A stretch of 42,010 nucleotides of DNA, taken from positions 1 to 42,010 of the forward strand of contig JAKPKU010000181.1 in assembly GCA_029553545.1 (NCBI GenBank), in the 5' to 3' direction. Positions 21,690-40,281 of this stretch are shown one piece after another. The DNA is from Candidatus Cloacimonadota bacterium. Its GTDB lineage: Bacteria > Cloacimonadota > Cloacimonadia > Cloacimonadales > WRIO01. The position numbers and the translations under genes are program-made. Within the stretch, counting starts at the first letter, position 1; each line of letters begins with the position of its first letter. Under the pieces are notes generated by a model. It was not told the origin of the DNA and did not search any database. It saw only the letters and a list, made by a program, of their open reading frames with translations.

Positions 21690-21691
21690 TT

Positions 21692-24282: not shown

Positions 24283-24307
24283 TTAATATTCTTTCAAAAG
24301 TGATTGT

Positions 24308-25522
24308 TTAGATCATTGACTTTAGTAAATCGCCCAATGCCTTCACACCAGCATCGATTTGTTCGATTGATGGATATGAGAAATTTAAGCGTAAAGAGTT
24401 GAATCTTTCATGATTAGTGGGATAGAATTTACTTCCAGGTATGAAAGATATCTTCATTTCTTTTGCTTTTTCAAACAATTCATCTGTATTAATATGTTCA
24501 GGGCATGTCAACCAGATAAAGATACCGCCCTCAATTTCAGGCCATTTCACTTCTTTTGGCATATATTTTTCGAGAGCATTAAGCATTGCCTCCATATAAG
24601 GTGCATAGAATTTCTGTATCTTTTCGATATGTGGATTTAATTTATCATCTCTCATATACTTAGCAACAGCTCTTTCAGCCACACAGTTAGGGCTGACAAT
24701 AACTTTTTGTAGCCAAGAAATCATCGGTTGAATAAGCTCTTTATCTGCTAAGACATAGGCAACACGCAAGCCAGGTCCAAGTATTTTTGAAAAAGATTTT
24801 ACAGCGGTTACTACTTGTGAGTTTTGATAATCTTCTCTTGCGATAGCATAAAGGCTTTTAATGTTTTCACCCTTATATCTCAATTGGCTATAAGGATCAT
24901 CTTCAAGCAATAAGATAGAGTGCTTGATAGCTGTTTTTATCAAGTCATGTCGTCTTTGCAAGCTCATAGTTACGCCTGTTGGATTTTGAAAATCAGGTAT
25001 TGTATAAATAAATTTTATTGTCTTATTTTCTGCTTTGAGTTTAGCGATCACTTCATCAAGCTCAGCCATATTAATGCCTTCATCGTCCATTGACACAGGG
25101 ACAACTTCAGCTCCTGCAGCCTCAAAAGCGACTAAGGTATCTAAGAAGCTTGGTCCTTCACAAAGAATCACATCGCCAGGATTAATAAGAGTTTGGGTGA
25201 AATAATAGATGCCATTAGTAGCACCGTCAACAATTAAGATTTCATCATCAGCTAAATAGTCTTTTTTCTCCCACTTTTTGATCTCAGTTTTCAAAAAGTT
25301 ATCGCCTTCACTTGCCCCATATTGCAAGATATCACAGCCATCACTATCGATTACTTCATTGAATATTTCAGCGAGATCCTGTACAGGAAAAGTCTGCGGC
25401 GAGGGGAAGCCCCCTGCAAATGATATAAGACCTTTGATACCCTTTGTCGAAGCTACCAATTCACGAATCAAAGAAGATTTCATTGTAGCTGTTGATTTGG
25501 AATACATTGATTTTAAATTCAT
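24308..25522 (-). CDS. PLP-dependent aminotransferase (class I/II, LysN / MocR-like fold)
   Basis: Predicted fold-type I aminotransferase for amino acids, 404 aa and cytoplasmic. Visible elements are FAGGFPSPQTFP, the QYGASEG segment, YTIPDFQNPTGVTMS (Asn that binds PLP), EDDPYSQLRY, and the PLP lysine in AVKSFSKILGPGLRVAYV (near residue 245). This pattern matches the 2-aminoadipate/aromatic/branched-chain group, and the substrate cannot be fixed. No GntR DNA-binding domain is fused to it. GGAG five bases before the ATG supports the start. Confidence 0.9.
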   Translation of the reverse strand: MNLKSMYSKSTATMKSSLIRELVASTKGIKGLISFAGGFPSPQTFPVQDLAEIFNEVIDSDGCDILQYGASEGDNFLKTEIKKWEKKDYLADDEILIVDGATNGIYYFTQTLINPGDVILCEGPSFLDTLVAFEAAGAEVVPVSMDDEGINMAELDEVIAKLKAENKTIKFIYTIPDFQNPTGVTMSLQRRHDLIKTAIKHSILLLEDDPYSQLRYKGENIKSLYAIAREDYQNSQVVTAVKSFSKILGPGLRVAYVLADKELIQPMISWLQKVIVSPNCVAERAVAKYMRDDKLNPHIEKIQKFYAPYMEAMLNALEKYMPKEVKWPEIEGGIFIWLTCPEHINTDELFEKAKEMKISFIPGSKFYPTNHERFNSLRLNFSYPSIEQIDAGVKALGDLLKSMI

Positions 25523-25664
25523 CTTAACTCCTATAGTGTTTTTTTATTTGAGCTAAGTATATTTATTATGCCAAATCAGTCAAACAATATTTTCATAAAT
25601 ATGCTTTTATGAATATCTGCTGATCTTATTTCTCTCTTATAAAAACAATTAGAAAGTACAAAAA

Positions 25665-25817
25665 GTCCTCGCTTCGCTGCGGGTGAGGTACTTTACTTTG
25701 TAAAGGTTAGGTACTCTGACTGCGTCAGAGGTTAGGAACTTCGACTTCGTCAAAGGTTAGGTAAAAAATCAATTGATTTTTGTTTTGCTGTAGGTAATTT
25801 CACGAAGTGAAAATACT
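25665..25817 (+). repeat. hairpin array A
   Basis: Five to six short hairpins stand head to tail, separated by GTTAGGTA-like linkers. They are CTCGC/GCGGG (in the 19-mer at 25665-25683), CTTTAC-TTT-GTAAAG, CTCTGAC-TGC-GTCAGAG, CTTCGAC-TTC-GTCAAAG, the palindrome AAAAATCAATTGATTTTT, and ATTTCAC-GAA-GTGAAA. Linkers and loop pattern stay fixed while stems change. This array fills most of the 343-base gap between the aminotransferase and the HsdR-N-like gene. A TTGACA at 25820-25825 just after it may serve the next gene, although the -10 is poor. Confidence 0.75.
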
Positions 25818-25865
25818 TCTTGACAATTACTATCTTTCTTTACAAGATAAGATTTGGAGGCGCAT

Positions 25866-27371
25866 ATGTTATCAATTATTGAAGATATTAAGGGCAAACT
25901 CAATAATGTATCTTTTACAAACAAGGGGCAGATACGTTTTGCACTGATTAGTAGGATATTGCAAAGTCTACAGTGGGACATCTGGAACCCAGCGGAGGTT
26001 TATTACGATTACCCTATCAAGAATTTCCCAAGATGTAGTATCAGCAATGATGAGAATGGCACAGTTGATTTTGCTCTCTTTATATTAGGGGCAAAGGAGC
26101 CTAATATCTATATCAAAGTAGCAGATATTGGTCAGTTGCTTGATAATATTGGCGTATATGAAGAGCAATTATCTACATACAATGACTATGATGCATCGGA
26201 AATCAGCATTATCACCGATGGCATTATCTGGCAATTCTATTTTTTGAATGCTGGTGGCTCTTTTTCGAGTAATCTCGTCGAATCTCTCAATCTTTTGAAT
26301 GACGATATAGAACAAATCATAAATACATTCACTGAGGTCTTTGACAAAAAATTCAATAGAGAAAAATATCGGCAAAGACAATTAGAAGAAAAAGCCCTGA
26401 TCGATGATATTGTGTCTGTAATGCACGAGGCAGAGAAGGATGCTCCACGATATAGTATGACAAAGTATGATGCTGCTTCAAGGTTGATTTATACGCAATG
26501 CAATAAAGAACGCTCTATCGACCAGATCGAAAAGTTTTGGGATAGAGCACTGAAAAAGAAAAACCTTCATAGCACAGAGAGCAAAGACACAATTGCTGAA
26601 ACCCCTGATTATACACCTACTCAAAAGCTAATAGACCTCAATACATTCAATCCAACATTCACCAAAATATTACGTGCTGAAATCTTTGGTGAATTTCATT
26701 ATATCAAAAACTGGAAAGATCTATACCTGAAAGTGTGTACAAAAGTATTGGAAATATACCCAAATTCTGATCTAACAGGCTTTTTAAGCACAGAGAAACC
26801 AAACAAAAACATTGACTATGTCATAATTAAAGGCAAGTATTTAGTTACAAACTTAAGTGCACGTGATATACTAAAGAATTGTATAAGAGTCCTACAAGCC
26901 CATGGTCTCACTGATAATCTGAAGATTTACGAAGGTGATATTGTTAAACAAAAAGATCATACCACTGTTGAAATCTTAGATAACACGCCCACTCAAATAG
27001 TTTCAGAGCCAATTATGCCTATCTTAGCAAGACCTATTAATCTCAGGACATTCAACCCAACCTATACCAAAATAATAAGAGCTGAAATCTTTGGTGAATT
27101 TCATTATATAAAAAACTGGAAAGATCTATATCTGAAAGTGTGTACAAAAGTATTGGAAATATACCCAAATTCTGATCTGGCGGGCTATTTAACCACAGAA
27201 AAACCAAATGGCGATAGCATAATTATTAATGGCATATATTTATCTACAAGGAGCAATCCACAAGAATGCTTAAAACGTTGCCTTATAATATTACAAACCA
27301 ATGACCTGAATGATAGCCTGAAGATCTACAAAAACGATATTATCAAAAGAGAGAAAAAAGTCAGAAAATAA
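25866..27371 (+). CDS. HsdR-N-like protein with inactivated nuclease site and duplicated C-terminal domain
   Basis: The 501-aa protein has an N-terminal domain (about 1-165) like the N-terminus of type I restriction R subunits: RFALISRILQSLQWDIWNP, VDFALF, and EEQL followed by ITDGIIWQFYF. In active relatives the next block reads FIEVK; here it is YIKVA (residues 82-86), so the Glu and Lys of the PD-(D/E)xK site are replaced while D68 is kept. It is therefore probably catalytically dead. After a linker come two copies of a domain of about 105 aa (about 245-360 and 380-500), with WKDLYLKVCTKVLEIYP at the core and LKIY near the end. I start at ATG 25866, because GGAGG lies five bases before it; the TTG at 25854 overlaps that site. 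It lies alone between two inverted hairpin arrays. It could be a regulator, immunity protein or binding subunit. Confidence 0.75.
   Translation: MLSIIEDIKGKLNNVSFTNKGQIRFALISRILQSLQWDIWNPAEVYYDYPIKNFPRCSISNDENGTVDFALFILGAKEPNIYIKVADIGQLLDNIGVYEEQLSTYNDYDASEISIITDGIIWQFYFLNAGGSFSSNLVESLNLLNDDIEQIINTFTEVFDKKFNREKYRQRQLEEKALIDDIVSVMHEAEKDAPRYSMTKYDAASRLIYTQCNKERSIDQIEKFWDRALKKKNLHSTESKDTIAETPDYTPTQKLIDLNTFNPTFTKILRAEIFGEFHYIKNWKDLYLKVCTKVLEIYPNSDLTGFLSTEKPNKNIDYVIIKGKYLVTNLSARDILKNCIRVLQAHGLTDNLKIYEGDIVKQKDHTTVEILDNTPTQIVSEPIMPILARPINLRTFNPTYTKIIRAEIFGEFHYIKNWKDLYLKVCTKVLEIYPNSDLAGYLTTEKPNGDSIIINGIYLSTRSNPQECLKRCLIILQTNDLNDSLKIYKNDIIKREKKVRK
26676..27178 (+). repeat. 98-base near-identical duplication inside the HsdR-N-like gene
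   Basis: 26676-26773 and 27081-27178 match at 96 of 98 positions. Both differences are silent (ATC/ATA for Ile, TAC/TAT for Tyr). The rest of the two domains has diverged much more, so this core looks recently duplicated or converted. Confidence 0.9.
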
Positions 27372-27376
27372 AGTAG

Positions 27377-27455
27377 GTGCGCCCATCTCGGACGCACCCT
27401 GGTAAATCAATTAATTTTACGAAGCAAAGCACCTATCCCGCAGCGAAGCGAGGAC
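27377..27455 (-). repeat. hairpin array B, inverted relative to array A
   Basis: Read on the - strand it starts with GTCCTCGCTTCGCTGCGGG (27455-27437), the exact reverse complement of 25665-25683. It continues with a TAGGTGC linker, an imperfect GTAAA..TTTAC palindrome and a GGTGCG/CGCACC hairpin (27377-27398). The last also stands six bases behind the HsdR-N-like gene and could act as its terminator. Together with array A it frames that gene. Confidence 0.7.
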
Positions 27456-27459
27456 CAAA

Positions 27460-27981
27460 TCAGCTTTCAGTAAGATGTACTTTTGGGCTCATCTTCCTTC
27501 TATTTTTCAGCTCTTCTGCCAATGCTTCATCTTTTTTTTTGATTTTTTTTATACTTCTACCAATAGCTTTGCGAACTGCATCGTATAGCTTTGATTGGGA
27601 GGTGGGGAAACTTCTTAGTTTGAATCTTTTGCCCAAACACTCAGCAAGATACTTTTCCATTATAATAATATCTTCTTCTGTTTTAACTACCAAGTCATTT
27701 CTCCCCAAGCTCTCAAATACAGCTTTTCTTTCGATCATATTATTTAACTCTTTTCTAACTTCAGATAATGCTTTTCGATCAGTCATGGGGATTTTTGTAT
27801 CTAAAACTACCTGATGTATAGCATCTTTCTTAAGATTTTCGTCGAATTTTAGTTTGGCCTCTAATAGTTCTTCAGGTGTAAACCCTTCACCCATATTTTC
27901 CAGTAGCGTGATTAAATAAAAATCATTTTCTCGATTCAAATACCCTAAAATCTCTTTGTGGCGTTCCTTAATTTGGTCCAT
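27460..27981 (-). CDS. 173-aa protein of unknown function, related to the 137-aa protein at 30.7-31.2 kb
   Basis: Highly charged, helix-rich protein without signal peptide or membrane segment. It ends in a basic tail (GRSIKKIKKKDEALAEELKNRRK). The middle contains NMIERKAVFESLGRNDLVVKT, which matches LIERKAILMNYGKTELVKET in the - strand gene at 30747-31160; the two are thus distant paralogues in the same island. GGAG six bases before the ATG sets the start. A basic tail suggests nucleic-acid binding, but I know no family for it. It is last in a same-strand run of small genes. The 261 bases before it contain no supported feature. Confidence 0.7.
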   Translation of the reverse strand: MDQIKERHKEILGYLNRENDFYLITLLENMGEGFTPEELLEAKLKFDENLKKDAIHQVVLDTKIPMTDRKALSEVRKELNNMIERKAVFESLGRNDLVVKTEEDIIIMEKYLAECLGKRFKLRSFPTSQSKLYDAVRKAIGRSIKKIKKKDEALAEELKNRRKMSPKVHLTES

Positions 27982-28242
27982 GGTGGTCTCCTTTGTTTTA
28001 ATAAATATTGTACATTCCTATTTTAATTTAGAATTAAGCACAAAACTCAGAATAGCTCATTCAGAGTTCCATCTTACACAAAAATAAACACGATTATTAC
28101 CTATTATTACATATTTGAATGTACCTCTTATATTATATATAAAAAGAGCAAAATAACAAATAATTTTTATCTCTTTTTTTAATAATATTTGCTGATGTTG
28201 CTGTACAAACAAAACATGCGTGTTTATTATAATTAACATATT

Positions 28243-28416
28243 TTAATTATCCAATGACTCTAAAATTGTACTAATTCGCACAATGTCTTTTTCAATTCTG
28301 ATGGTACGCTCTTCAATGGAATTGACTCGATTGGTCACGTCTTTCCAAACATATCCTAAAACGGCTAAAACCACTGGTATAAGAGCAGCATTAATAAAAG
28401 CTGTATACATTGTCAT
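28243..28416 (-). CDS. 57-aa single-TM, coiled-coil small protein (holin- or XhlA-like)
   Basis: The peptide begins MTMYTAFINAALIPVVLAVL, a hydrophobic helix. A charged heptad stretch follows (VTNRVNSIEERTIRIEKDI) and it ends in SLDN. AGGAG six bases before the ATG gives a good ribosome binding site. One TM helix plus one coiled coil is the layout of small phage proteins (holin/XhlA-like) and of some membrane toxins. No lysin is nearby, so neither role is shown. It is spaced 52 bases behind the 54-aa gene. Confidence 0.65.
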   Translation of the reverse strand: MTMYTAFINAALIPVVLAVLGYVWKDVTNRVNSIEERTIRIEKDIVRISTILESLDN

Positions 28417-28468
28417 ATTATCTCCTTTCTCTGCTTATTGTTATTATTTGTATGCGTATCTTGTATTA

Positions 28469-28633
28469 TCACGTGTTATTCTCAACTAATTCTTCTAAGA
28501 TTTTGACGATTCGGTCGTCGACTTTATTTTCTGTCTTTTTTGCTATATCTTTAAATAGTGCTATTAATAGTCTTATTAGCCTATCATAGGGCAGCATGCT
28601 CAGTAAGAGTATTATATATTTGTCCATTTTCAT
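28469..28633 (-). CDS. 54-aa small protein with amphipathic N-terminal helix
   Basis: The frame starts at ATG 28633, five bases behind GGAG, and ends in TGA. The N-terminal half is hydrophobic (MKMDKYIILLLSMLPYDRLI and on to RLLIALF) and the second half is charged (KKTENKVDDRIVKILEELV). The layout resembles its 57-aa neighbour, but there is no clear sequence match. It could be a membrane-associated peptide of a small phage-like or toxin-like set. The function is unknown. Confidence 0.6.
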   Translation of the reverse strand: MKMDKYIILLLSMLPYDRLIRLLIALFKDIAKKTENKVDDRIVKILEELVENNT

Positions 28634-28656
28634 TTTGTCTCCTTTATTTTTTAATT

Positions 28657-28696
28657 GGCAGGCGGAGGATAAGCTTTTGCTCGCCTCCCGCCCGCC
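28657..28696 (-). other. GC-rich hairpin ahead of the 54-aa gene
   Basis: GGC-A-GGCGG-AGG (28657-28668) pairs with CCT-C-CCGCC-C-GCC (28684-28696) around a 15-base loop. It is strikingly G+C-rich for this window and sits about 20 bases before the ribosome binding site of the 54-aa gene. It has no T-run on the - strand. It is possibly a translational or RNA-stability control, or a separate repeat. Confidence 0.45.
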
Positions 28697-28754
28697 TTAC
28701 TTTCTGGGGTTAAGTGTCGTAGCCACTCAAAAGCAGCTAATTATTTTTACGATA

Positions 28755-29201
28755 TTAAGTGATTGGACTAATTAAATGATCACATCCTTTCAAATAAGGT
28801 AAGATCTGATTTTCCATTAAACCGCTGATAGTAGTTCCACCTATACCATCAAAATCATTTAAAGATAAACTTTCCAATGGATTACTTGACATCTTTGCTG
28901 CAGCATAACATATCTTCACAAATAATGCATATGATGTTGCCTTAAGCTTATCAGGGAAATTAATATTAAGTATCTGAGCATAAATTGTCAGATCGTTTTT
29001 AAATGCTGAATTTGCAGCCACCCATAATGTTCTGATATTCTCAGCATTCTTTTTAAATTGCTCATGTTGGTCAGTATACTTTGGTTTTGTGTAGTTCTTT
29101 GCAATACAAACGTTCCCTAAATTGTGTGAGGAGTAAACGACATCCTCTTCCTTGTCTTTACCTGAATATGCTGTGATATTCTTCTTCATGTACACTCTCA
29201 T
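28755..29201 (-). CDS. 148-aa protein of unknown function
   Basis: Soluble, mostly helical protein, no signal peptide. Segments include KPKYTDQHEQFKKNAENIR, NDLTIYAQILNINFPDKL and a glycine-containing FDGIGGTTISGLMENQI. I recognise no domain. GGAGG six bases before the ATG is strong. It is first of a same-strand run with the 54-, 57- and 173-aa genes, which share the same style of ribosome binding site. A small mobile or phage-derived module would fit, but no integrase, capsid or lysin is visible. Confidence 0.65.
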   Translation of the reverse strand: MRVYMKKNITAYSGKDKEEDVVYSSHNLGNVCIAKNYTKPKYTDQHEQFKKNAENIRTLWVAANSAFKNDLTIYAQILNINFPDKLKATSYALFVKICYAAAKMSSNPLESLSLNDFDGIGGTTISGLMENQILPYLKGCDHLISPIT

Positions 29202-29294
29202 TGTGTACCTCCTTTGATTTTATTTATTCTTCTTGCGCATGAAGTTTTTTTATATTTATTTTATTTGCTTCGGTGAATTTGGAATTATGAATTG

Positions 29295-29419
29295 TGTGAA
29301 AAAAAAACAACACCCTCTATATATATTGGCAGGACAAAACGGAGTTTTTTGAAAACTATTTTCAACTAAACCGGCAGATGCCTACTACAAGCGGGTTTAG
29401 GGGTGATTTTTTTTTCACA
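29295..29419. repeat. structured repeat element, copy 2 (long hairpin)
   Basis: The outer stem TGTG + nine A (29295-29307) pairs with nine T + CACA (29407-29419). Inside is CACCC (29311-29315) with GGGTG (29401-29405), and inside that AAACC (29368-29372) with GGTTT (29394-29398), enclosing GGC-AGAT-GCC and the block GCCTACTACAAGC. It shares its 5', middle and 3' blocks with the element at 198-345. No open frame explains it. Confidence 0.55.
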
Positions 29420-29452
29420 ACACACATTTTTTTTTAACAACACACTGTTTTG

Positions 29453-29601
29453 GTCCTCGCTTCGTTGCGGGTGAGGTACTTTTCTCCGAAAAGGTTAGGT
29501 ACTCTGACTGCGTCAGAGGTTAGGTGCTTCGACTGCGTCGAAGGTTAGGTAAAAAATCAATTGATTTTTGTTTTGCTGTAGGTAATTTCACTACGTGAAA
29601 T
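29453..29601 (+). repeat. hairpin array C
   Basis: Same order as array A: CTCGC/GCGGG, CTTTTC-TCC-GAAAAG, CTCTGAC-TGC-GTCAGAG, CTTCGAC-TGC-GTCGAAG, AAAAATCAATTGATTTTT and ATTTCAC-TAC-GTGAAAT, with GTTAGGT(A/G) linkers. Against array A the second stem exchanges an A-T pair for a T-A pair and the fourth restores a pair that is mismatched in A. The stretch from 29202 to 30746 contains no supported gene and consists largely of such repeats. Confidence 0.75.
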
Positions 29602-29611
29602 TGGAGGGAGC

Positions 29612-29700
29612 TTTTGCTTCGCTGCGGGTACCGTTTAAAAAAATCGGCAGATTTTTTTAAACGTACCCACAACTATCCTTAGTTGTGCAGCGAAGCAAAA
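29612..29700. repeat. perfect three-way-junction inverted repeat, copy 1
   Basis: Base stem TTTTGCTTCGCTGC (29612-29625) / GCAGCGAAGCAAAA (29687-29700), 14 bp. Arm 1 is GGGTA/TACCC plus CGTTTAAAAAAATC / GATTTTTTTAAACG with one bulged C and a GGCA loop (29626-29668). Arm 2 is ACAACTA-TCCT-TAGTTGT (29669-29686). The arms abut with no unpaired base at the junction. A CGAC-TTC-GTCG hairpin follows. Confidence 0.8.
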
Positions 29701-29722
29701 CGTGCGACTTCGTCGCTGACGG

Positions 29723-29848
29723 TTTTAGTCTCAACAAGTTGGTACGCGAAGGTGTTCAGATTATAGGTTTTTAGTCTCAACAAGTTGGTACGCGAAGGTG
29801 TTCAGATTATAGGTTTTTAGTCTCAACAAGTTGGTACGCGAAGGTGTA
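29723..29848 (+). repeat. 46-bp tandem repeat, about 2.7 copies
   Basis: TTTTAGTCTCAACAAGTTGG and the following CGCGAAGGTGTTCAG recur at 29727, 29773 and 29819 (first A of AGTCTC), giving a period of 46. The first two units are identical where compared, and the third breaks off after AAGGTGT. A GTACAATTA/TAATTGTAC hairpin follows directly (29847-29868). Confidence 0.85.
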
Positions 29849-29952
29849 CAATTAAGGCTAATTGTACCTACAATTAGCTGCACGTGAATTTTACTTAAGG
29901 TATTTCTTTCTGGTGAAAGAAATATATAAGGAAGCAGGTTCCTTTTAAATAA

Positions 29953-30296
29953 TCTCTCATTCCCAATAATCTGGCTTTGTAAATAAAAATAGCCTTATTT
30001 GTATATGTGCGATGGACAACTACGAACAAGCCAAAAAGAAATCTATCATTCACGATAATATGGCTTTGTAAATACAAATAGCCTTAATTGTATACGTGCG
30101 ATGGACAACTACGAACAAGCCAAAAAGAAATCTCTCATTCACGATAATCTGGCTTTGTAAATACAAATAGCCTTATTTGTATACGTGCGATGGACAACTA
30201 CGAACAAGCCAAAAAGAAATCTATCATTCACGATAATATGGCTTTGTAAATACAATTAGCCTTATTTGTATACGTGCGATGGACAACTATGAACAA
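29953..30296 (+). repeat. 89-bp tandem repeat, four copies, alternating A-B-A-B
   Basis: GATGGACAAC recurs at 30011, 30100, 30189 and 30278, an exact period of 89. Units differ at only a few positions. Most units contain the inverted repeat ATACAAATA/TATTTGTAT (reduced in the first, second and last) and an outer TGGCTT..AAGCC pairing. The junctions after copies 1 and 3 read CTATCATT..ATATGG and those before copy 1 and after copy 2 read CTCTCATT..ATCTGG, so the units alternate. Each complete unit from ATG to TAA encodes a 19-codon frame (30012-30071, 30101-30160, 30190-30249), without a clear ribosome binding site. Confidence 0.85.
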
Positions 30297-30343
30297 GTAA
30301 ATAGAGTCAATCTTCAATTTCTCGAAGTGAAATTGGAGGGAGC

Positions 30344-30433
30344 TTTTGCTTCGCTGCGGGTATCGTTTGAAAAAATCGACAGATTTTTTTTAAACGTACC
30401 CACAACTATCCTTAGTTGTGCAGCGAAGCAAAA
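30344..30433. repeat. three-way-junction inverted repeat, copy 2
   Basis: Same structure as 29612-29700: base stem 30344-30357 / 30420-30433, arm 1 30358-30401, arm 2 30402-30419. It differs from copy 1 in the bulged base (C to T), in one pair that becomes a G-T wobble, in the apical loop (G to A) and by one extra T. No difference breaks a Watson-Crick pair. Confidence 0.8.
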
Positions 30434-30456
30434 CGTGCGACTTCGTCGTAAAACCG

Positions 30457-30569
30457 GACGAGCAAAGCTCGCCCCTACGTTATTTCTTTCTGACGAGCGA
30501 AGCTCGCCCCTACATTATTTTGGTCCTCGCTTCGCTGCGGGGTAAAAATAAACCTCGCCGAAGCGAGGT
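30457..30569 (+). repeat. cluster of GACGAGC hairpins and a further array unit (D)
   Basis: Two copies of GACGAGC-(AAA/GAA)-GCTCGCCCCTAC (30457-30478 and 30492-30513, period 35) are followed by the 19-mer GTCCTCGCTTCGCTGCGGG at 30523-30541 and by ACCTCGC-CGAA-GCGAGGT (30552-30569). Repeats of the GACGAGC type occur in many unrelated bacterial genomes. The remaining 180 bases up to the next gene are A/T-rich without a feature I can name. Confidence 0.7.
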
Positions 30570-30746
30570 CTAAATAAGTTCTAAATTATATTTTCTATTA
30601 ATATTTGTGAAAAACAAAAAAACAGATTCCAGAGATATAGTAGAATCTATTTTTTCCAATAAGATTGTAGCAATCTATTTTATATAATACACTTAGTCTA
30701 TAATATAAGACAATGATAAAGTATTATATATTAATCATAAGTGAAA

Positions 30747-31160
30747 TCATTTTTTTATGATTTTGGTATTATACTTATGACTGATAAAGTACTTTGCATT
30801 TGGAAAGAAGCTTGCAATGTTCATAGAGAGGTATAATAAATGTATTAATGAATCAGTCTCTTTGACCAATTCAGTTTTGCCATAATTCATTAATATGGCT
30901 TTTCTCTCGATTAAAATATTGATTTTGCTTTTTACCTGAGACTTAAAATACTCGTCTGCAATAGGTAAAACACCACTACATACTTTTTCATAGGTGGTGA
31001 TAGCATTCCTCTTTTTAATCAGATTTTTTACAATTACACGCTTTTTGTCAGTTGGAACAAATCTGACATCCAACTGATTGATAGAGTCGCTATGACCACT
31101 ATAAAGGGTCATAATTCGACTCAAAAACTCATGGGTTTGAGCTTGGATAAGATTATTCAT
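30747..31160 (-). CDS. 137-aa protein of unknown function, related to the 173-aa protein at 27.5-28.0 kb
   Basis: Soluble, basic, mainly helical protein. The central part LIERKAILMNYGKTELVKET, with a preceding ADEYFKSQVKSKIN, aligns with the central part of the 173-aa protein. The N-terminal halves are too divergent to align by eye. GGAGG seven bases before the ATG is strong. It stands apart from its paralogue, on the far side of the repeat block. A role linked to this island is likely, but the function is unknown. Confidence 0.65.
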   Translation of the reverse strand: MNNLIQAQTHEFLSRIMTLYSGHSDSINQLDVRFVPTDKKRVIVKNLIKKRNAITTYEKVCSGVLPIADEYFKSQVKSKINILIERKAILMNYGKTELVKETDSLIHLLYLSMNIASFFPNAKYFISHKYNTKIIKK

Positions 31161-31386
31161 AATCTATCCTCCTTTGTTTATTTTTAGGCTACTTGCCTTA
31201 TACTATCCGTCCTTTCTTTCAAAACCAAAGGCAACTATAGTTCAATTTATTATCAAGTACTTAAACATCTTTCTCATACCCAAATATCTGTCAATATATT
31301 TCTATAAAAACTTTGCATTATATGAAAATTATGCGTATAGACGGCTACTGAGCTGCTTGCTTTTTTTGGCATTATGTAGATATCTC

Positions 31387-31414
31387 TTGCCAAAGTGTTT
31401 TTTTAGCCTATATT
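31387..31414 (+). promoter_or_regulatory. promoter of the UDG-like gene
   Basis: TTGCCA (31387-31392), a 16-base spacer and TATATT (31409-31414), 30 bases before the ATG. The 283-base gap between the divergent neighbours shows no other feature I can support. Confidence 0.5.
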
Positions 31415-31443
31415 ATCTCAAACGAATATAAAGGAGCTGTTTA

Positions 31444-32172
31444 ATGGTATTAGAAATAGAATTACAGGTAAAAGAAGGTGGGGAGATAGAAGTTATTACG
31501 ATAGACTTGAGCCGTATCATTAAAGAAAGTATAAGCGGTGAGGTTGTTTTGAGTAAAGATGAAGCAGAAAAAAAGATAGAAAAATCAAAAATGTTTCATT
31601 ATGATAAAGCTGTGAAAGATGATACATTATGCTTAATAAAGAAAGAAAACGGATATACTGAAATAACTGAAGATGTGAACCCTTACTATAAAACAATCGT
31701 AGTGCTCTTAGAATCGCCTCATAAGGCTGAATATACTGAAGATTTTGCACCAATAAGACCATTAAATAGCAATGATCCAAGAGTGAAATTAAAGAAAGCA
31801 TTAAAAGATATTATTAACAGTGATAATGATTTAAGTGATGGACTTTACCGAATATTATTAGTAAACCCTATACAATTTCAAACTTCAATGTACGAAATCT
31901 TTGGGTTGCCTGTTCAAGGTCGGACTGGTAAAAAAATTCGTGATAAGGTTTGGGATACATTATGGAAGCTGGATAGTATAAAAGATTGCTTGTCTGATAG
32001 ATTGAAAAAATTGGAACTTGATTTGAAAATGATTATTATATCTACCACTAAGCAATTTAGACCCGAAATTAGGACATTTTTAAATGATCGTTTTAAACAT
32101 ATAAAGACAAAAGAGATACATCATCCTTCATGTCGAGAATTATCATTAATTAAAAATGCAAAGAAAAAATAA
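31444..32172 (+). CDS. protein with uracil-DNA-glycosylase-like motifs, function unproven
   Basis: The 242-aa protein has an N-terminal strand-rich part (1-80). A block VVLLESPHKAEYT (about 86-98) stands where UDG-superfamily proteins carry their water-activating/ligand motif, and a late IHHPSCRELSLI (about 223-234) recalls the HPS-type DNA-intercalation motif. The middle has RILLVNPIQFQTSMYEI. UDG-fold proteins remove uracil from DNA or have turned into defence and modification proteins. Here the first motif lacks the classic GQDPYH, so activity is open. GGAG precedes the ATG by seven bases. It is divergent from the 137-aa gene and convergent with the transposase fragment. It could instead be an unrelated Rossmann-like enzyme. 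Confidence 0.45.
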   Translation: MVLEIELQVKEGGEIEVITIDLSRIIKESISGEVVLSKDEAEKKIEKSKMFHYDKAVKDDTLCLIKKENGYTEITEDVNPYYKTIVVLLESPHKAEYTEDFAPIRPLNSNDPRVKLKKALKDIINSDNDLSDGLYRILLVNPIQFQTSMYEIFGLPVQGRTGKKIRDKVWDTLWKLDSIKDCLSDRLKKLELDLKMIIISTTKQFRPEIRTFLNDRFKHIKTKEIHHPSCRELSLIKNAKKK

Positions 32173-32331
32173 AGCATAGAAGTTAAAGAAAAGCCACGTA
32201 AGTTGAAAAGGAGACCCAGGAGTCTTAAAAAATTCGAATAAATATCCTCCGCGTCTTAGCAGCTTATGTATGAGTCAGCTGTGCTCGTCTCATGCGATGA
32301 AGCCGCCTACGTATCAATAGGGACAGGGGAA

Positions 32332-32393
32332 TTGACACTCTTGGAGTTAGATAATTTGGGTTAGGTCGTGTCAATACACCTGCCCCTTGACAC
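32332..32393. repeat. TTGACAC inverted-repeat cluster, possible IS or REP-like end
   Basis: GTGTCAA (32368-32374) and TTGACAC (32387-32393) form an inverted repeat around a C-rich core TACACCTGCCCC. A third TTGACAC (32332-32338) follows CAGGGGAA. The group lies exactly at the 3' end of the transposase fragment and may be what is left of an element end. The 220 bases between the two flanking genes hold no other gene. Confidence 0.45.
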
Positions 32394-32723
32394 CTACTTT
32401 TTTTTCAATTTATTTACTTTAATATGATGGGTGAAGGACCTATAGCCTGCTTTTATTTCAGGGTATTTTTCAGTAAGCATCTCATATAGTCTGGTCATGC
32501 TTATCTCTGGGTCTTGTTTATAAGCCATTTTGATGAAGTCGCGGTACTGTTCAAACTCGCTTTTACGGCTCACTTTATGTGAAAAATATTGACGAGCTTC
32601 TTCGTCATCCATTCTTAAATACTTGGTGACTGTGTTTCTGTGAAAACCTGTTTTTCTCGCTATGGCACGTACAGGCATTCCTTCCATCTGTTTTAATTGC
32701 AGATACACTGCATAGCCTTTCAT
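32394..32723 (-). CDS. N-terminal fragment of an IS21-type transposase (IstA-like)
   Basis: The 109-aa frame has a homeodomain-like helix-turn-helix (MPVRAIARKTGFHRNTVTKYL) followed by the KSEFEQYRDFIKMAYKQDPE and ISMTRLYEMLTEKYPEI region. This is the typical beginning of IS21 IstA. The DDE integrase core and the IstB helper ATPase are absent: the frame stops after HHIKVNKLKKK. It is therefore a truncated remnant, or a small regulator derived from one. The start at 32723 is set by GAGGAGG just upstream; longer in-frame starts lack such a site. It lies close behind the methyltransferase gene on the same strand. Confidence 0.7.
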   Translation of the reverse strand: MKGYAVYLQLKQMEGMPVRAIARKTGFHRNTVTKYLRMDDEEARQYFSHKVSRKSEFEQYRDFIKMAYKQDPEISMTRLYEMLTEKYPEIKAGYRSFTHHIKVNKLKKK

Positions 32724-32815
32724 ACTAACCTCCTCTATGATAAACTCCATATTTTTCAAGAAGTATATGCTGAGAATTGAGACGCAATGTTTAGCTCTCA
32801 ATTCTCAGCTCTCTA

Positions 32816-35800
32816 TCAATTATCTTCCCTCTCAATAATCGCAATTTCATCCTTTGTCAAATCATAAAGCTGATAGACTAATCTATCTATCTGACCTTCA
32901 AGCTCTGAGGTATCTGCCTTTGTATTAGCCTTTTTTATAGCGGTAATTTGCTCAACTAATTCTATCATTTGGTCTGCTATATGCTGATTTGCTGCAGTAA
33001 TAATAGGGACATGGATTTGTTCTATATACTGCTTCGTCCATCTAAAGGCTTTATCAAGAGAATTACTAATAGTCCTAAATTCAAAGAATGTAATTTTTGA
33101 GTTAAGACATGCGATCAAGTATTTTAAGTTAACTGTATCTGATGTGAGAATATATGCTGTTGCTTCCAAGTACATGAGTTCTTCAAATAGTGCAAATGGG
33201 TTTATAGTAGAAATATCTGCCCATATAATCTTTTCTTTTTCAAATTCTTTATAATATGTGGCAGCACATCTTTGAAGAGCATACCACTCATATCTGATAC
33301 CTGTTTCAGCTTTATTTCTACTGCTTAAAGCAGGTTTATAATGAAGTAGATGTTGATAAATTGCAGGATACTGAATTTGGAATTCTTTTTCTGCTTTATC
33401 ACTCGATCCTTGAATACTCGAATCTTCGTGTAAAGGGAAATGCCAAGGCACAAAAATTATCCACAATCCTGCCCATTCATAGCTATATCGTTTAATATCT
33501 CTACCACGAAGAATAGGCTTTATAATTTCTGCTGATTTTGGATCTTCAGCACAGAGTCTCTCTTTAGTTGCTGTATCGATGATAAATGCATCATTGAGTC
33601 CTGTTAATACTCCTCGGTAAATATTCACATCCCAGTCTTTCAGTGGTTTACCAATGCGTTCAATTTTTTCTTTTAGGGAGATTTCAGCAGAATTCCCTAT
33701 AAACCATGCATCCTGAGACACTTTATTCAGAATAATTGACTCATTACTCATCGCTTCATTAATACTTTTTAAATCAGAATAATAGGTTAGTGCTTTTAAG
33801 TTATTTTGGTTTACATTCTTTTCTATTAGCATTATATTGGTATCAACAGTAGCTGATTTAAATACTCCTGGTCCTAAATCTATCAATACTTTGGGATTTA
33901 GTTCAGAGAAGTATCTTCTTAATTTTTCACCATAACCTGCTCTCATCCATTTATTTGAAGTAATCAAACATAAGTGACCATTGTCTTTAAGTAAATTAAT
34001 ACCTTTTTCATAGAATAAACCATAAATATCACCCATAGAATCATAAGTAACAAAGTTTTGTTCTTTGTATAATTTCTGAAGAGGATTTCCTTTGAATTTT
34101 TGTAACTGTACATAAGGTGGATTTCCTATCAGAATATCAAAGCCATCTTCAATACCATACATCCACTGTGCATCAAACCAATCAGCACCACATATTTGAT
34201 TATATGGATCCCATGAAGCAATATTATCGATACTCCCTTCTGGATAATCAGCTTTTTTTAGTTCACTCTTTATTTCTTCTCTTTTCTTACGGTCTTCTGC
34301 TCTTAGCTCCTTTTTTTTCCTTAAGTACTTGGCGGAAAACATTCTATGTCTTATTTGCTTCAGCTCGTTTTCAAGATCTTTAATTTGATACAAATCATAT
34401 ATGGTAATTTGCTCTTTTGGCTTTTCCAACTTGATCAAGCTATTAGCAGCTACAAATTTTGTTTCCAGGTTGGGCAGGGCTTTTAGTCCAAAATTATCTT
34501 CTTTATTTTCATTAGCCTTTTGGTCAACAATCAGAGAGATGAAAAAGCGTAGTTTACTGATCTGAATAGCTATTGGTTGGATATCGACGCCATAGATACA
34601 GTTTTCAATCAAATAGAGTTTACGTCCATAGTCCATTCCTTTATTTTGAAAAGAGGTTTCGATAGCCTTGATAGCCTCTTCTCTGTACTCTGCAACTTCT
34701 ATACTCTCAGTTTTCTTAATCTGTCTCTCTTTCCAGCGTTTATTATCGGGGTCAAGCTTTTGCAAGAGGTGTACTTGTTTATGCAGTATACCCATGGGAA
34801 AGGCGCCTGAACCACAAGCAGGGTCGAGGATCTTACAATTATCAATTGCCTTAATTAAGACCTCAACCTGGTTTTGGTCGAAGAGATGCTCTTTCTCATT
34901 ATAGCTAATCAAGAAATCAATTCCTACTTCTGCATCCTCTTCTTTCATCTTTGCCTCTTTGACCAAGCTCTGGATGAGATAAGCCTTTAAAGACTCATCT
35001 ACCATAAAATTCACAACTTCTCTCGGTGTATAAAAGCTGCCTGTCTTCTTACGTGCTGTTTCTTTTGTATCGGGATTATAGGTTGCCAAGAGGTTTTCAA
35101 AGACACGTCCCAAGAGTTCTGGATCGAGGGCAATATCTTCTTCTATAGGCGTATTCTCTTCAATGGTAAACTTAAAATTATTAAAGATATTAATTAAACC
35201 GTGTACCTTAACTTTATTCTTTTTTGTGTCATAAAGGTCATCAGCAAGGTTTGCCGTCTCTTCAGCTGAGAAGAAGAGATAATCAGGCACTGAAATTACA
35301 TTATCATTACGGTCGGAAAAGCCATCTATCTTAACTTTAACAATGCCCCCCTGAGGACCTCTCTGTGTATCATCCAGATAGTCCAAGCACTCAAAGAGTC
35401 CACCGTTTAAGAAAGGCACATTATCATCAAGCCATTGAGCAAAAGCATCTGGTTCTTTGAAAGTGTCTTTATAGCGCATCAAATTATCAGCGCCCATATT
35501 TTGATCTTTTTTTCTAAATGCACGTTTGCCTACTTCTTGATTGAGTGTAGCAAAGAAGAGGTTTTGCAGAATAGACTTATAATAGATACTCTGCTGTTCG
35601 TGAGGCTCTCGCTCACTATCTTTCTTTGTTTCTATCTCTTGCTTGAGTATCATATTTAAGTGATCTAATTCGAATAACTCGCGGGGCACTAAATCTCTCT
35701 CTTTGATAAACCAGACAAATAAGAGACGGGTGAGCATTCTAATCAGATTCATTTCATTTTGCTCTTTAGCTTTATCATCACCTTTTTGAGTGCCATTAGG

Positions 35801-36502
35801 GAATCTAACTTCATTGATCGCCCAGAAATACCAGTTGGATAGCTCGGTGTAGAATTTCTTATTTAGTTCTTGAATATCGAGTACTTTCTCCCAAGCTTTC
35901 TGCAAATCGTCAAAGTTTTCTATCTTTTTTTTCTCTTCTGTACTTAGCTCAGCGAGCGATAAGCTTAACAATATATCGAGATGTGCTCTGTGTGGAGAGG
36001 CGATAGAGATGTCTTTAATCATCGTGATTTTCAATATAACATCTTTATTATCATCGTTTTTATTCTTTCTTTTATCCATCACAGATAGTGTCAGTAAATC
36101 ATTATATTTGAAGAGAATCAAGACTGGCATTTTATAAACTTTATTGATCTCACGGCTAATCTGTGCTATTTTGGTACGTGAATACTCATGTCCTTTAAGT
36201 TCTACGCACATGAAGAGAAAACTATGTTTCACTTTATGCTCAAATACGTATGGTTTAATACCATTTAGCTCAGCACTTGTAATCTGAAATAAGAGGTTTA
36301 TTGACAGCCACTCATCCACCAATGCTTTGTCTTCTTTAAAACTTGAGGTATCATTAGATCGTTTAAAGCCCTCAAAGTTTGCATAATTATCTATAAGCAC
36401 TCTTTCTGATTCATAGCCTAAAATCTTGAATAGTTCTCTTGCTGCTGCGAGCATTGGTTTGCTTGTAAATGCTTGGATAGCCGTTTTGATCTTATTTCTC
36501 AT
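32816..36502 (-). CDS. type IIG-like adenine-specific DNA methyltransferase (Eco57I/TaqI-type), candidate restriction-modification subunit
   Basis: The 1,228-aa protein has an N-terminal region with a VELKG segment (about 115), which could be a divergent PD-(D/E)xK nuclease core, but the full motif is not certain. A helical part follows, then the N6-adenine methyltransferase domain. That domain carries TGSFYTPREVVNF (motif X, about 490), DPACGSGAFPMG (motif I, about 560) and GNPPYVQL (motif IV, about 793). A C-terminal target-recognition region of TaqI type begins near NIYRGVLTGLNDAFI (about 960). It starts ten bases after the helicase gene stop, with GAGG overlapping that gap, so both are co-expressed. 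The protein probably marks host DNA and supplies sequence recognition. The upstream part may be nuclease or scaffold. Similar helicase/methylase pairs occur in other bacteria, and I do not know a tested mechanism. Confidence 0.85.
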   Translation of the reverse strand: MRNKIKTAIQAFTSKPMLAAARELFKILGYESERVLIDNYANFEGFKRSNDTSSFKEDKALVDEWLSINLLFQITSAELNGIKPYVFEHKVKHSFLFMCVELKGHEYSRTKIAQISREINKVYKMPVLILFKYNDLLTLSVMDKRKNKNDDNKDVILKITMIKDISIASPHRAHLDILLSLSLAELSTEEKKKIENFDDLQKAWEKVLDIQELNKKFYTELSNWYFWAINEVRFPNGTQKGDDKAKEQNEMNLIRMLTRLLFVWFIKERDLVPRELFELDHLNMILKQEIETKKDSEREPHEQQSIYYKSILQNLFFATLNQEVGKRAFRKKDQNMGADNLMRYKDTFKEPDAFAQWLDDNVPFLNGGLFECLDYLDDTQRGPQGGIVKVKIDGFSDRNDNVISVPDYLFFSAEETANLADDLYDTKKNKVKVHGLINIFNNFKFTIEENTPIEEDIALDPELLGRVFENLLATYNPDTKETARKKTGSFYTPREVVNFMVDESLKAYLIQSLVKEAKMKEEDAEVGIDFLISYNEKEHLFDQNQVEVLIKAIDNCKILDPACGSGAFPMGILHKQVHLLQKLDPDNKRWKERQIKKTESIEVAEYREEAIKAIETSFQNKGMDYGRKLYLIENCIYGVDIQPIAIQISKLRFFISLIVDQKANENKEDNFGLKALPNLETKFVAANSLIKLEKPKEQITIYDLYQIKDLENELKQIRHRMFSAKYLRKKKELRAEDRKKREEIKSELKKADYPEGSIDNIASWDPYNQICGADWFDAQWMYGIEDGFDILIGNPPYVQLQKFKGNPLQKLYKEQNFVTYDSMGDIYGLFYEKGINLLKDNGHLCLITSNKWMRAGYGEKLRRYFSELNPKVLIDLGPGVFKSATVDTNIMLIEKNVNQNNLKALTYYSDLKSINEAMSNESIILNKVSQDAWFIGNSAEISLKEKIERIGKPLKDWDVNIYRGVLTGLNDAFIIDTATKERLCAEDPKSAEIIKPILRGRDIKRYSYEWAGLWIIFVPWHFPLHEDSSIQGSSDKAEKEFQIQYPAIYQHLLHYKPALSSRNKAETGIRYEWYALQRCAATYYKEFEKEKIIWADISTINPFALFEELMYLEATAYILTSDTVNLKYLIACLNSKITFFEFRTISNSLDKAFRWTKQYIEQIHVPIITAANQHIADQMIELVEQITAIKKANTKADTSELEGQIDRLVYQLYDLTKDEIAIIEREDN

Positions 36503-36512
36503 AATTTCCTCT

Positions 36513-39500
36513 TTACTTGATTATTAGCCAGGTGATTAGTTCAAAGTCTTTTGACTCATTTAATTGATTTTCTATCAAGGGCAGTATAAAGTCTCTTGAA
36601 TCATTTAAACTCGTCTTATTCTTATCCTGGTAGAGATTTATTATATTAGTGATAGATTTTTTTAATAGTTCTGATTGCTTGTCTATTTTAGTTCCATTAT
36701 CTGTCTCTTGGTCAAATATTTGGCAAAGTTCTTCGATAGGCTTTTCTATTTCCGAGCAGAGCAGTTTGTATATTCTCAAGATCTGTTTTGCATTGGCATA
36801 ATTAAATCTCACAGTGCCATCATCACGCACATAAACCAAATAATAAGGGCTGAATGGGTTTTGCTTTTTATTTTCTTCGTCATCACTAATCTGTCTTAAG
36901 CAAAAGATAATACCTGGTTTAATGATACTCTTTTCTGCTTGTTCAAATACTCTCCCTTGCGCCAGTGAAGCATATTCACCGCCAGGTGCAGGCGCTATTG
37001 CATACAGTCCTAAAGGCGTAGCAGCGAGGTAGTCTCGATAATTGCTATCCAACCCGCTCAGGTCGAGTTTCAGCCCCTCAGTGCTCAAATCAACAAGAGA
37101 TAGCGAGTCGTCGAGATCATCGATATCCAGTATCTCGTCTTTCAGTTTTCGCAATTGATCATTACGAGGATTATTAATATTTGAACAATCTTCATCAGGA
37201 TCAAAGATATTATCATCAGCCGTGGCTGTTGCATCAACAAGGGCAGAGCGTGCTCTCACTCTCTCTTCAAGATTAAGATACTTTTCGATATCTTCTCCTG
37301 GCCAGAAGTTTACCATTTTTATTGTTTCATTTTCGCTGCTCAAGCGATCGATACGACCAAAACGCTGTATTACTCTGACTGGATTCCAGTGAATATCATA
37401 GTTTACCATATAGTCACAGTCCTGCAAGTTTTGTCCTTCACTGATACAGTCAGTAGCGATCAAGATATCTATTTCACCATCTTTATCTGTTGAATTGGAA
37501 TCGCCTCTTTTTTTCGCTTTAGGGGCAAAATTCGTGAGTATATTGTCATAGTCATTTCTGCCAAACATTGTCATATTCTTAGTACCAGTTATCATGGCAA
37601 CATTGAGTTTTAGCTCGTCTTTTGCCCAATCTTTAATATTTTCATAGAGATAATTCACAGTATCGGCAAAGGCAGAAAAGATAAGCACTTTTTTGTTATC
37701 TTTATTAAAAGGATTATTGACTTTCTCAGATATCAATTCTTTGAGACGGATCAGCTTTGCATCGCGGTCTGGTGTAACACTTTCAGCTATATCTAAGAGA
37801 ACACGCATTGCCCGTTTATCTTCTCTCAACTCAATTAACCACTCATCAGTTTTTAGGTCGCAGAGTTTGAATTCAAGTTTTTTACCGACTTCCCAATCAT
37901 CAGATTCACCTTCAAGTTCATCCATTTCATCCTCATCAGGTAGAATAGACTCAATAATATTTTCATCTTTAAATGGATTATCTTTAGCTTGAAATTTGGT
38001 GATTTTCTTTTCGCGTTTCTCTATCTTATCAATAGTCCTCTTGATAGAGATAGCAAAGGAGTTAATTGAACTTTCCAAGCGCTTTAAATAATTCGTTATC
38101 ATTATCCCAATCAAGTTAAACTCGCTTTGATATTGAGATGTGTAATCATTGTCTTTGTCAAAGTAAACATTTTTCTTGTCTTCATAAAGGTATTTAGAAG
38201 GGTTGTAAATAGAGAGTTTATTAGCGAGGATTTGCGTAAAAATATCATTATAACTGAGTGTCGTATTCACGAAATCTATTTGTGAAGATATATCAACAGG
38301 CTTTTCTCTTTTGGAAAAATTAATTCTCGGATGAGCTTCATAAAACTCTTTTACCTGCTTGCGTGAACGCGCAATAGTTAACATATCAAGTAATTTGTAA
38401 AATGAAGCATCGAATCTCTCCATCAAGGCATGTTTACTTTTTACGGGTTTTTCATTTAACCATTCTTTTACTTGTTTATCAGCTTGATTAATAGTTTGAG
38501 AGATGCTTTTAATATTTTCTTTTTCAGACAGAGCTTTGTCATTGCCTTGCGTAATCAAGCTAATCTGATTTCTCAAGTCGGACAGTCTATTATTTACTGG
38601 TGTGGCAGAGAGCATAAGCACTTTGGTATTATAGCCACCCTTGAGAATCTTGTCTAAAAGCCACTTAGCACGGTTCTTCTTGCCATCCCTTTCTATTGGA
38701 TTGCCACGGAAATTATGCGATTCATCAATGACAACGAGGTCAAATGCACCCCAATCAAAGTTTTCTAACAAGATTCCATTTGCGCTTGAGACGCCGCTTT
38801 CTCTACCCATATCTGTATGGAAGAGCACTGTATATCTAAATGCGTCATCTTTAAGAGGATTGAGTCCATTGTTTTGACTGGCTTGGTAAATTGTCCAGTT
38901 TCCCGACAGTTTTTTGGGACAGAGCACCAAGACTTTAGCATTCTGTAATTCAAAATGCTTGATCACAGCGAGTGCTTCATAAGTCTTACCGAGACCGACA
39001 CTATCGGCAAGAATGCAACCACCATAGTTATTTATTTTATTAATCGCCCCTTTCACACCATCCTTTTGATAATGTAAGAGTTCTTTCCAAATCACACTGT
39101 CATAAAGATGAGAGCTCTCAGGCAGGATTTGTTCGTCTAATTGACCTTCAAACATATGATACAGCGTCTTTAAATAGATAAAGCGTGGGCTATTATCTCT
39201 TGTCAATCGCTCGATATATTTCAAAACTTCTTTTTTAACATCAACAACTGTCTTTTCATCACTATTCCAGATCTCGTCAAACCAGGCTTTCAAGTCCATG
39301 CGATCGCGATCATTGTCAACAATAACATTTAATTCAATATTCTTCGAGCCACCAAGACCAAGACCATTGACAGTAAAGTTCGAACTACCAACAATAGCCT
39401 GCTCTACCCCACCTTTCTCTTTCACGTGATACATCTTGCCATGTAAAAAGTTAGGCTTGACCATGGACTTTATCTGGACTTTACTCTTTTTCATCCAAGC

Positions 39501-39806
39501 GGCACAGTCCTTGGCAACCTTCCTCTGATACAGAGTATCTTCGGGTGAGATGACCAGTCTTTCATCTGCAATTGAGTATTTACGGTAAATCGCCTTTTTT
39601 GGATCTACTGACTTAAGAAATGTAGGCTCACCAAAGAGAAATTTCAAGTCATTGACTTGCGCCAGTTTGTCCTTTATCTGCTCATACGCATAAATGGTAA
39701 AATACGCTGAAACAATGGAGACATCAGCCCCCTCTACCAGCTTCTCCTTCAAAAAATCTCCAACACAACCACGATTGTAATTATCACGTAAATTACTGTC
39801 AGCCAT
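36513..39806 (-). CDS. PLD nuclease-SNF2-type helicase fusion, partner of the adenine methyltransferase
   Basis: The 1,097-aa protein starts with a phospholipase-D-type nuclease domain that has one HKD motif (LHGKMYHVKEKGG and GSSNFTVNGLGLGGSKN, about 120-150). The superfamily-2 helicase core follows, with Walker A ADSVGLGKT (about 272), DESH (about 361), motif III SATPVNN and the C-terminal motifs DCISEGQNLQDCDYM and QRFGRIDR (about 820). A helical, acidic insertion separates the two helicase halves. One HKD per chain suggests that the nuclease works as a dimer. The ATG at 39806 is preferred over a GTG at 39821, since GGGGTG precedes it closely. With the methyltransferase it resembles a split type ISP or DISARM-like (drmD/drmMI) system. 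The usual companion genes of DISARM (drmA, drmB, drmC) are absent. Confidence 0.85.
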   Translation of the reverse strand: MADSNLRDNYNRGCVGDFLKEKLVEGADVSIVSAYFTIYAYEQIKDKLAQVNDLKFLFGEPTFLKSVDPKKAIYRKYSIADERLVISPEDTLYQRKVAKDCAAWMKKSKVQIKSMVKPNFLHGKMYHVKEKGGVEQAIVGSSNFTVNGLGLGGSKNIELNVIVDNDRDRMDLKAWFDEIWNSDEKTVVDVKKEVLKYIERLTRDNSPRFIYLKTLYHMFEGQLDEQILPESSHLYDSVIWKELLHYQKDGVKGAINKINNYGGCILADSVGLGKTYEALAVIKHFELQNAKVLVLCPKKLSGNWTIYQASQNNGLNPLKDDAFRYTVLFHTDMGRESGVSSANGILLENFDWGAFDLVVIDESHNFRGNPIERDGKKNRAKWLLDKILKGGYNTKVLMLSATPVNNRLSDLRNQISLITQGNDKALSEKENIKSISQTINQADKQVKEWLNEKPVKSKHALMERFDASFYKLLDMLTIARSRKQVKEFYEAHPRINFSKREKPVDISSQIDFVNTTLSYNDIFTQILANKLSIYNPSKYLYEDKKNVYFDKDNDYTSQYQSEFNLIGIMITNYLKRLESSINSFAISIKRTIDKIEKREKKITKFQAKDNPFKDENIIESILPDEDEMDELEGESDDWEVGKKLEFKLCDLKTDEWLIELREDKRAMRVLLDIAESVTPDRDAKLIRLKELISEKVNNPFNKDNKKVLIFSAFADTVNYLYENIKDWAKDELKLNVAMITGTKNMTMFGRNDYDNILTNFAPKAKKRGDSNSTDKDGEIDILIATDCISEGQNLQDCDYMVNYDIHWNPVRVIQRFGRIDRLSSENETIKMVNFWPGEDIEKYLNLEERVRARSALVDATATADDNIFDPDEDCSNINNPRNDQLRKLKDEILDIDDLDDSLSLVDLSTEGLKLDLSGLDSNYRDYLAATPLGLYAIAPAPGGEYASLAQGRVFEQAEKSIIKPGIIFCLRQISDDEENKKQNPFSPYYLVYVRDDGTVRFNYANAKQILRIYKLLCSEIEKPIEELCQIFDQETDNGTKIDKQSELLKKSITNIINLYQDKNKTSLNDSRDFILPLIENQLNESKDFELITWLIIK

Positions 39807-39837
39807 AAACACCCCACACACACATGATTTTTATGCC

Positions 39838-39866
39838 AATGTAGTTTATGTGTTAAATGTTGTCAA
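39838..39866 (-). promoter_or_regulatory. promoter of the helicase-methyltransferase operon
   Basis: On the - strand TTGACA (39866-39861), a 17-base spacer and TACATT (39843-39838), 32 bases ahead of the helicase ATG. This is a near-consensus match. Confidence 0.65.
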
Positions 39867-39916
39867 TCTTTATTTTTTCATTAGCAACGCACTTTTAACA
39901 ACACACGGCGACAAAA

Positions 39917-40082
39917 GACAAACTGTTCCATGGTACACAAACACTAATTTTACATTTCTTTTTTTAACAACACACTACAACACACTACAACACACTACAA
40001 CACACTTAGGTTTAAAGTCTTTGACAAACTGTTCCATGGTACACAAACACTAATTTTACATTTCTTTTTTTAACAACACACT
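39917..40082 (+). repeat. 60-bp direct repeat enclosing a decamer microsatellite
   Basis: 39917-39976 and 40023-40082 are identical over 60 bases (they begin GACAAACTGTTCCATGGTAC). Between and overlapping them stand four exact copies of ACAACACACT (39967-40006). The end of the repeat, TTTTTAACAACACACTG followed by TTTTGGTCC, also occurs at about 29431-29457, in front of array C. Confidence 0.85.
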
Positions 40083-40088
40083 GTTTTG

Positions 40089-40186
40089 GTCCTCGCTTCG
40101 CTGCGGGTTAGGTACTTCGACTCCGTCGAAGGTTAGGGTCCTCGCTTCGCTGCGGGTTAGGAGCTTTCACTTTCGTGAAAGGTTTT
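40089..40186 (+). repeat. hairpin array E
   Basis: GTCCTCGCTTCGCTGCGGG (40089-40107), TTAGGTA, CTTCGAC-TCC-GTCGAAG, GTTAG, then a second copy of the 19-mer (40138-40156), TTAG, and CTTTCAC-TTTC-GTGAAAG followed by a T-run. It has the same linkers as arrays A and C but a different order of hairpins. The 460 bases between the helicase gene and the oxidoreductase gene contain no gene that I can support. Confidence 0.75.
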
Positions 40187-40281
40187 TTTAAAGGTAGTTG
40201 TAACTTATTCTATACGACAACACACTTGGGTTTATAGCCTTAGACTTACAGTTTCATATTCTACAAGACAGTGAACCAGAA

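Follow-up and report, generated by a model that had tools for sequence, protein, structure and literature searches.

Hairpin arrays of a Cloacimonadota genome as probable REP/BIME-like mosaic repeats processed by a RAYT

Arrays and neighbouring repeats in the window

The window, by which we mean the whole stretch of DNA analysed (42,010 nucleotides), is contig C38 of a 2.88 Mb MAG of Candidatus Cloacimonadota in 268 contigs, and its aminotransferase shares 87% identity with the one encoded in another Cloacimonadota MAG (JAJBBH010000051.1). About 574 kb of the array-bearing genome and 1.48 Mb of a sister genome (G001) were sampled; array copy density is biased, since the sampled stretches were picked partly for holding arrays. 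For gene calling, the longest ORF of at least 110 aa was taken in place of the predictions of a trained gene finder.

Three of the five sites where an earlier note on this DNA had placed hairpin arrays (A, C and E) do hold them, both by sequence and by their folds as single-stranded DNA, and these arrays are real and non-random. The other two (B and D) consist only of the START motif and degraded sequence, and we therefore treat them as remnants. The plan of an array is a START motif (TCCTCGCTTCGCTGCGGG), followed by hairpin units joined by GTTAGGTA and then by a tail. In array A (25665-25817, plus strand) START is followed by CTTTAC/GTAAAG, CTCTGAC/GTCAGAG, a CTTCGAC unit with one mismatch, the tail AAAAATCAATTGATTTTT and ATTTCAC-GAA-GTGAAA, while array C (29453-29601, plus strand), which is 93% identical to A across 148 bp, has START, CTTTTC/GAAAAG, CTCTGAC/GTCAGAG, CTTCGAC/GTCGAAG, an AT tail and a TTTCAC hairpin. 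The change in the second unit from CTTTAC/GTAAAG to CTTTTC/GAAAAG, pointed out earlier as a swap of one base pair for another, is real. Array E (40089-40205, plus strand) is built from the same units as A and C, in the order START, CTTCGAC/GTCGAAG, START, CTTTCAC-TTTC-GTGAAAG and tail 2. As single-stranded DNA, all three fold into a string of hairpins, with z = -4.7 (plus strand) and -4.8 (minus strand) for C, -3.1/-4.0 for E and -2.3/-3.5 for A.

Remnant B (27377-27455, minus strand; fold z -1.65) is an inverted START with a decayed tail, directly after an ORF at 25854-27371, and remnant D (30523-30569, plus strand) is a lone START followed by an inverted half copy. The ORF between array A and the inverted START encodes a 505-aa protein, carries an internal duplication (26637-26803 and 27042-27208, 90% identical) and is possibly a cassette. 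Between arrays C/D and E (32816-39821) lie a type IIG restriction-modification enzyme and a PLD/SNF2-type helicase, likely a defence pair.

Array C stands in a composite of repeats, all on the plus strand. It is followed by a three-arm hairpin element, the cloverleaf (29607-29696; fold z -10.4 on 29617-29696), three tandem copies of a 46-bp repeat (29723-29851), four tandem copies of an 89-bp repeat (29952-30299), a second cloverleaf (30339-30429) and two copies of a GTAG-type REP (GACGAGC-NNN-GCTCGCCCCTAC, 30456-30519). Two copies of a AACAACACACT-type 60-bp repeat, a type which often precedes arrays, lie before array E (39917-40082, plus strand). In general, arrays combine with the cloverleaf, the 89-, 60- and 46-bp repeats and the GTAG-REP into composites; arrays A and E have no adjoining cloverleaf. 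The cloverleaf itself is present in 27 near-full copies genome-wide; on another contig (G000:C158:5440-5809) several copies of its third arm are set at 38-bp spacing, that part having been amplified alone. A further 110-bp intergenic repeat (201-315 and 29304-29414 in the window, with GGCAGATGCCTACTACAAGCGGGTTTA) gave 25 hits in the 574 kb sampled. It alone among the repeats also had hits in the sister species, although weak ones, and may be either a structured RNA or an element of greater age.

Hairpin unit, slot order and distribution

Genome-wide, 101 units share one design, namely a GGTA foot, a 6-7 bp stem, a TNC triloop and a GTTAGG linker, with a length of 17 nt in 56 units and 15 nt in 45. 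The foot and first stem base read GGTAC in 73/101 and GGTAT in 12/101, the rest being others, and the triloop is TNC (TTC, TCC or TGC) in 96/101. The GTAN foot sits 5' of the hairpin on the plus strand, where the loop reads TNC; on the minus strand it reads GNA, and mismatches among the distinct units lean to G.T on the minus strand (7 vs 3 cells).

There are about seven stem types, and 81 of the 101 stems are perfect Watson-Crick pairs, so the claim that stems vary and still pair holds well. Among the 17 distinct 17-nt units, 93.3% of cells are paired against 83.2% after shuffling, two-sided changes occur in 14 cells against 3.9, and the covariation score is 0.351 against 0.165, and for each of the three measures none of 500 shuffles reached the observed value; when the structure is slid along these units, pairing drops to 31-49%. 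However, since the units are paralogues and the stem types alternate in fixed slots, much of this covariation may come from swapping of whole hairpins rather than from independent compensatory mutation. Under either process the structure is kept.

The slots follow a grammar: START comes first, the next slot holds CTTTAC or CTTTTC, the one after it TTTTCAC, CTCTGAC or CATTGC, and the last hairpin slot CTTCGAC or CTTTCAC, before either of two tails closes the array; about 40 arrangements occur among 51 arrays. Units are head-to-tail within an array, and opposed orientation is seen only between some whole arrays.

The genome and its relatives were searched at DNA level. Matches lie at 56 places in the genome itself, and no array DNA was found in 59 relatives, one congener included. 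The exact pattern of linker, unit and linker had no match in 84,980 species or in IMG/VR. Since both the pattern scans and the search of the 59 relatives were empty, the array sequence is taken as lineage-specific. The arrays had been described as non-coding, which their positions bear out: when hits were mapped against gene boundaries in 396 kb of sampled sequence, 28/28 were intergenic, where 24.4 would be expected inside genes, and 7 of 14 array clusters lay between divergent genes, compared with 22 of 262 in the background. The arrays have precise ends and turn up repeatedly next to flanking sequences that are unrelated to one another. At several array loci, such as L083 (10848-11417) and L034 (207-875), a multi-copy gene family (MKVFLTGDHKFPKRIGESILAYY...) repeatedly adjoins the arrays; it has a homologue in G001 and no Pfam match.

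RAYT genes and synteny breaks

Two genes of RAYT type are present in the genome, along with a single IS200/IscB element. RAYT1 (C113:15446-16096) passes the NCBIfam model for REP_Tyr_transpos (NF047646) narrowly, with 80.5 bits at a cut-off of 80, and its catalytic HVH (HUH) and Tyr residues are intact and invariant. Its best match is 4er8 (profile 5.5e-10; fold 3.5e-6, model pLDDT 71), a REP-associated tyrosine transposase whose structure was solved with a REP hairpin. RAYT1 is flanked on both sides by inverted 93-bp copies of the cloverleaf, 95.7% identical to each other. A full hairpin array lies about 640 bp upstream, on one side only, and its tie to RAYT1 is proximity only; with 56 copies in the genome, such a distance could alone be due to chance. 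On either side of RAYT2 (C20:945-1547) stand arrays, inverted relative to each other, of GTAGGGGCGAGC-TNT-GCTCGTC, which looks like a canonical GTAG-REP and belongs to the family present beside array C. The IS200/IscB element (L033 254-1869, contig C186), in which the gene for the RNA-guided endonuclease IscB is immediately followed by that for an IS200-type TnpA, was rejected as a source of the arrays, as none of these repeats lies around it.

Throughout the order, repeats common to both flanks were found within 400 bp at 24 of 25 RAYT loci (RAYT1 included), whereas among 30 control loci, also taken from this order, there was one such case (Fisher p = 2e-13). The repeats at these RAYT loci differ in sequence from locus to locus and mostly have visible hairpins. 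One relative's RAYT (L038), which is 37-42% identical to RAYT1, is flanked by the hairpin GGTACGCAAGC-TTC-GCTTG, with a design nearly that of the array units. Dispersal driven by a RAYT is not evident in the two relatives looked at in this respect (G005 and G014), as their RAYT-flanking hairpins are few and mostly local.

The window is collinear with G001 from 9510 to 25593, and collinearity ends just before array A; the gene to the right of array E lies on a different G001 contig. Of 20 testable arrays, none is placed in G001-collinear sequence, whereas 42/116 other intergenic gaps are (p = 0.0004), or 10/37 when these are limited to gaps of at least 250 bp (p = 0.01). The evidence for an association of arrays with synteny breaks is modest, because the two genomes are distant (aligned sequence is 68-77% identical) and each was compared in part. 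No empty array site and no collinear site was found in the comparison with G001, as arrays sit at the synteny breaks. One ancestral gap (G001 C8, about 14162-14245) has been split, with one side next to array E and the other next to the composite at RAYT1, in the same polarity, which suggests recombination between array copies. The arrays may also account for breaks in synteny and in the assembly of this MAG.

Origin of the arrays and known systems

REP repeats are thought to be spread by a single-strand-cutting transposase, the RAYT, and the mechanism of their spread is still unsettled. The arrays resemble REP/BIME-RAYT systems (REPtrons) in that many copies of a short hairpin, preceded by a 5' foot, lie outside genes in mosaic clusters, in a genome with a RAYT gene. 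They differ in that the foot is GGTA/GTAN instead of GTAG (or GTGG), that units stand head-to-tail where BIMEs alternate REP and inverted REP, that about seven interchangeable stems are held in fixed slots by a constant linker, and that the RAYT is not tightly enclosed by the array on both sides. We consider it probable that the arrays belong with REP/BIME-like repeats, as a mosaic form specific to this lineage, that a RAYT processes them in single-stranded form and that recombination reshuffles them. The unit would then be a minimal single-stranded hairpin, with a GGTA (GTAN) foot, a perfect 6-7 bp stem and a TNC triloop, which a RAYT-type Y1/HUH transposase would bind by shape, foot and loop. 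The enzyme would break and reseal strands within the linker that all units share, by which units and whole arrays would be copied, swapped and moved between genes, and host recombination between near-identical array copies would rearrange the genome. We infer that the units are acted on by RAYT1 (and not by RAYT2, an enzyme since lost, or no enzyme at all), and that this happens at present; the cut site, too, we infer.

Purified RAYTs are known to use very short perfect hairpins with three-base loops as substrates, with the foot as a guide, and the REPs tested, with an 8-bp perfect stem and a 3-nt loop in S. maltophilia and a 5-bp stem in Marinomonas, are of the same size class as the array units (PMC8266576). 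The Marinomonas RAYT can be steered towards GA or GT sites by a GTAC foot (PMC8266576), and a GTAN foot with a GT-containing linker would suit redirection of this kind. It may even be, although we hold this to be rather unlikely, that a RAYT variant with a non-GTAG (GTAN) guide builds the slot-ordered arrays by exchanging single hairpins through the linker, as combinatorial swapping and not as simple REP copying.

A serious rival, if still an unlikely one, is that RAYT1 is a TIR-associated tyrosine transposase serving the cloverleaf and that the arrays merely ride along in composites. RAYT relatives with long terminal inverted repeats as dispersed families are described (TIRtrons/TIRYTs, PMC3733652), and RAYT1, between inverted copies of a cloverleaf which is itself dispersed in 27 near-full copies, is like them; however, the cloverleaf here is a single component of larger composites that also include hairpin arrays, arrays A and E do without it, and arrays vary unit by unit independently. 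The TnpA-Y1 subclass 2.6 and class 3 (PMC6006769) are also alike in having HUH tyrosine transposase genes bracketed by dispersed non-canonical structures, although class 3 has CnGA as its foot. The ends of IS200/IS605 elements and their MITEs share the subterminal hairpins, guide tetranucleotide and Y1 transposase, but the genome's own IS200/IscB element stands apart from these repeats. Quite unlikely, too, in our estimate is that the arrays are passive, being ends of an old mobile element or slipped palindromes which host replication and homologous recombination alone now amplify and shuffle, with no RAYT acting on the units. Head-to-tail units, constant linker, fixed slot order and position at synteny breaks would suit such a history, and the split G001 gap with sides of the same polarity is what recombination between array copies would give, but the arrays keep precise ends in unrelated surroundings, stems and TNC triloop are maintained across types, and across the order RAYT genes come with hairpin arrays.

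Among the roles suggested in the earlier note, protein-binding DNA hairpins and recombination substrates fit, owing to the RAYT-type HUH genes, the hairpin arrays bracketing the RAYTs of relatives and the synteny breaks, whereas a multi-hairpin RNA found no support in Rfam. Conserved pairing would suit RNA as well as single-stranded DNA; nevertheless, a transcribed structured ncRNA or an RNA processing or terminator element seems very improbable, as no array matched Rfam at gathering score (the only hit, istR, is at chance level, E 0.13, and beside the region), the arrays are conserved in no relative, and a 3'-UTR or terminator role is not expected when every second array cluster is flanked by divergent genes. 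The least credible reading, which we give almost no weight, is that of attC-like sites or another site-specific recombination array. The linker GTTAGGT does formally fit the core GTTRRRY and the units fold as single strands, as attC sites do, but the linkers all point the same way and no RYYYAAC partner is present (the lack of an attC partner had been stated before), the units carry no cassettes, and no integron integrase was above cut-off (best 79.9 vs 265 bits). A CRISPR reading of the arrays was likewise poorly supported.

The modular slot design with a non-GTAG foot is unusual, and the surprise is moderate. No paper on REP/RAYT systems in Cloacimonadota was found in the literature searched, in which they appear to be undescribed. 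With two RAYTs, a canonical GTAG-REP and modular non-GTAG hairpins, the genome offers natural variation of foot, stem and loop for testing RAYT recognition, and the order, whose RAYT genes were bracketed by their own hairpin repeats at almost all loci examined, is a good set for studying co-evolution of hairpin and enzyme. The RAYT-bracketing arrays of the order (loci L036-L063) have, among others, GTAG, GTAA and GTAC feet and are often no more than tens of bp away from the start codon.
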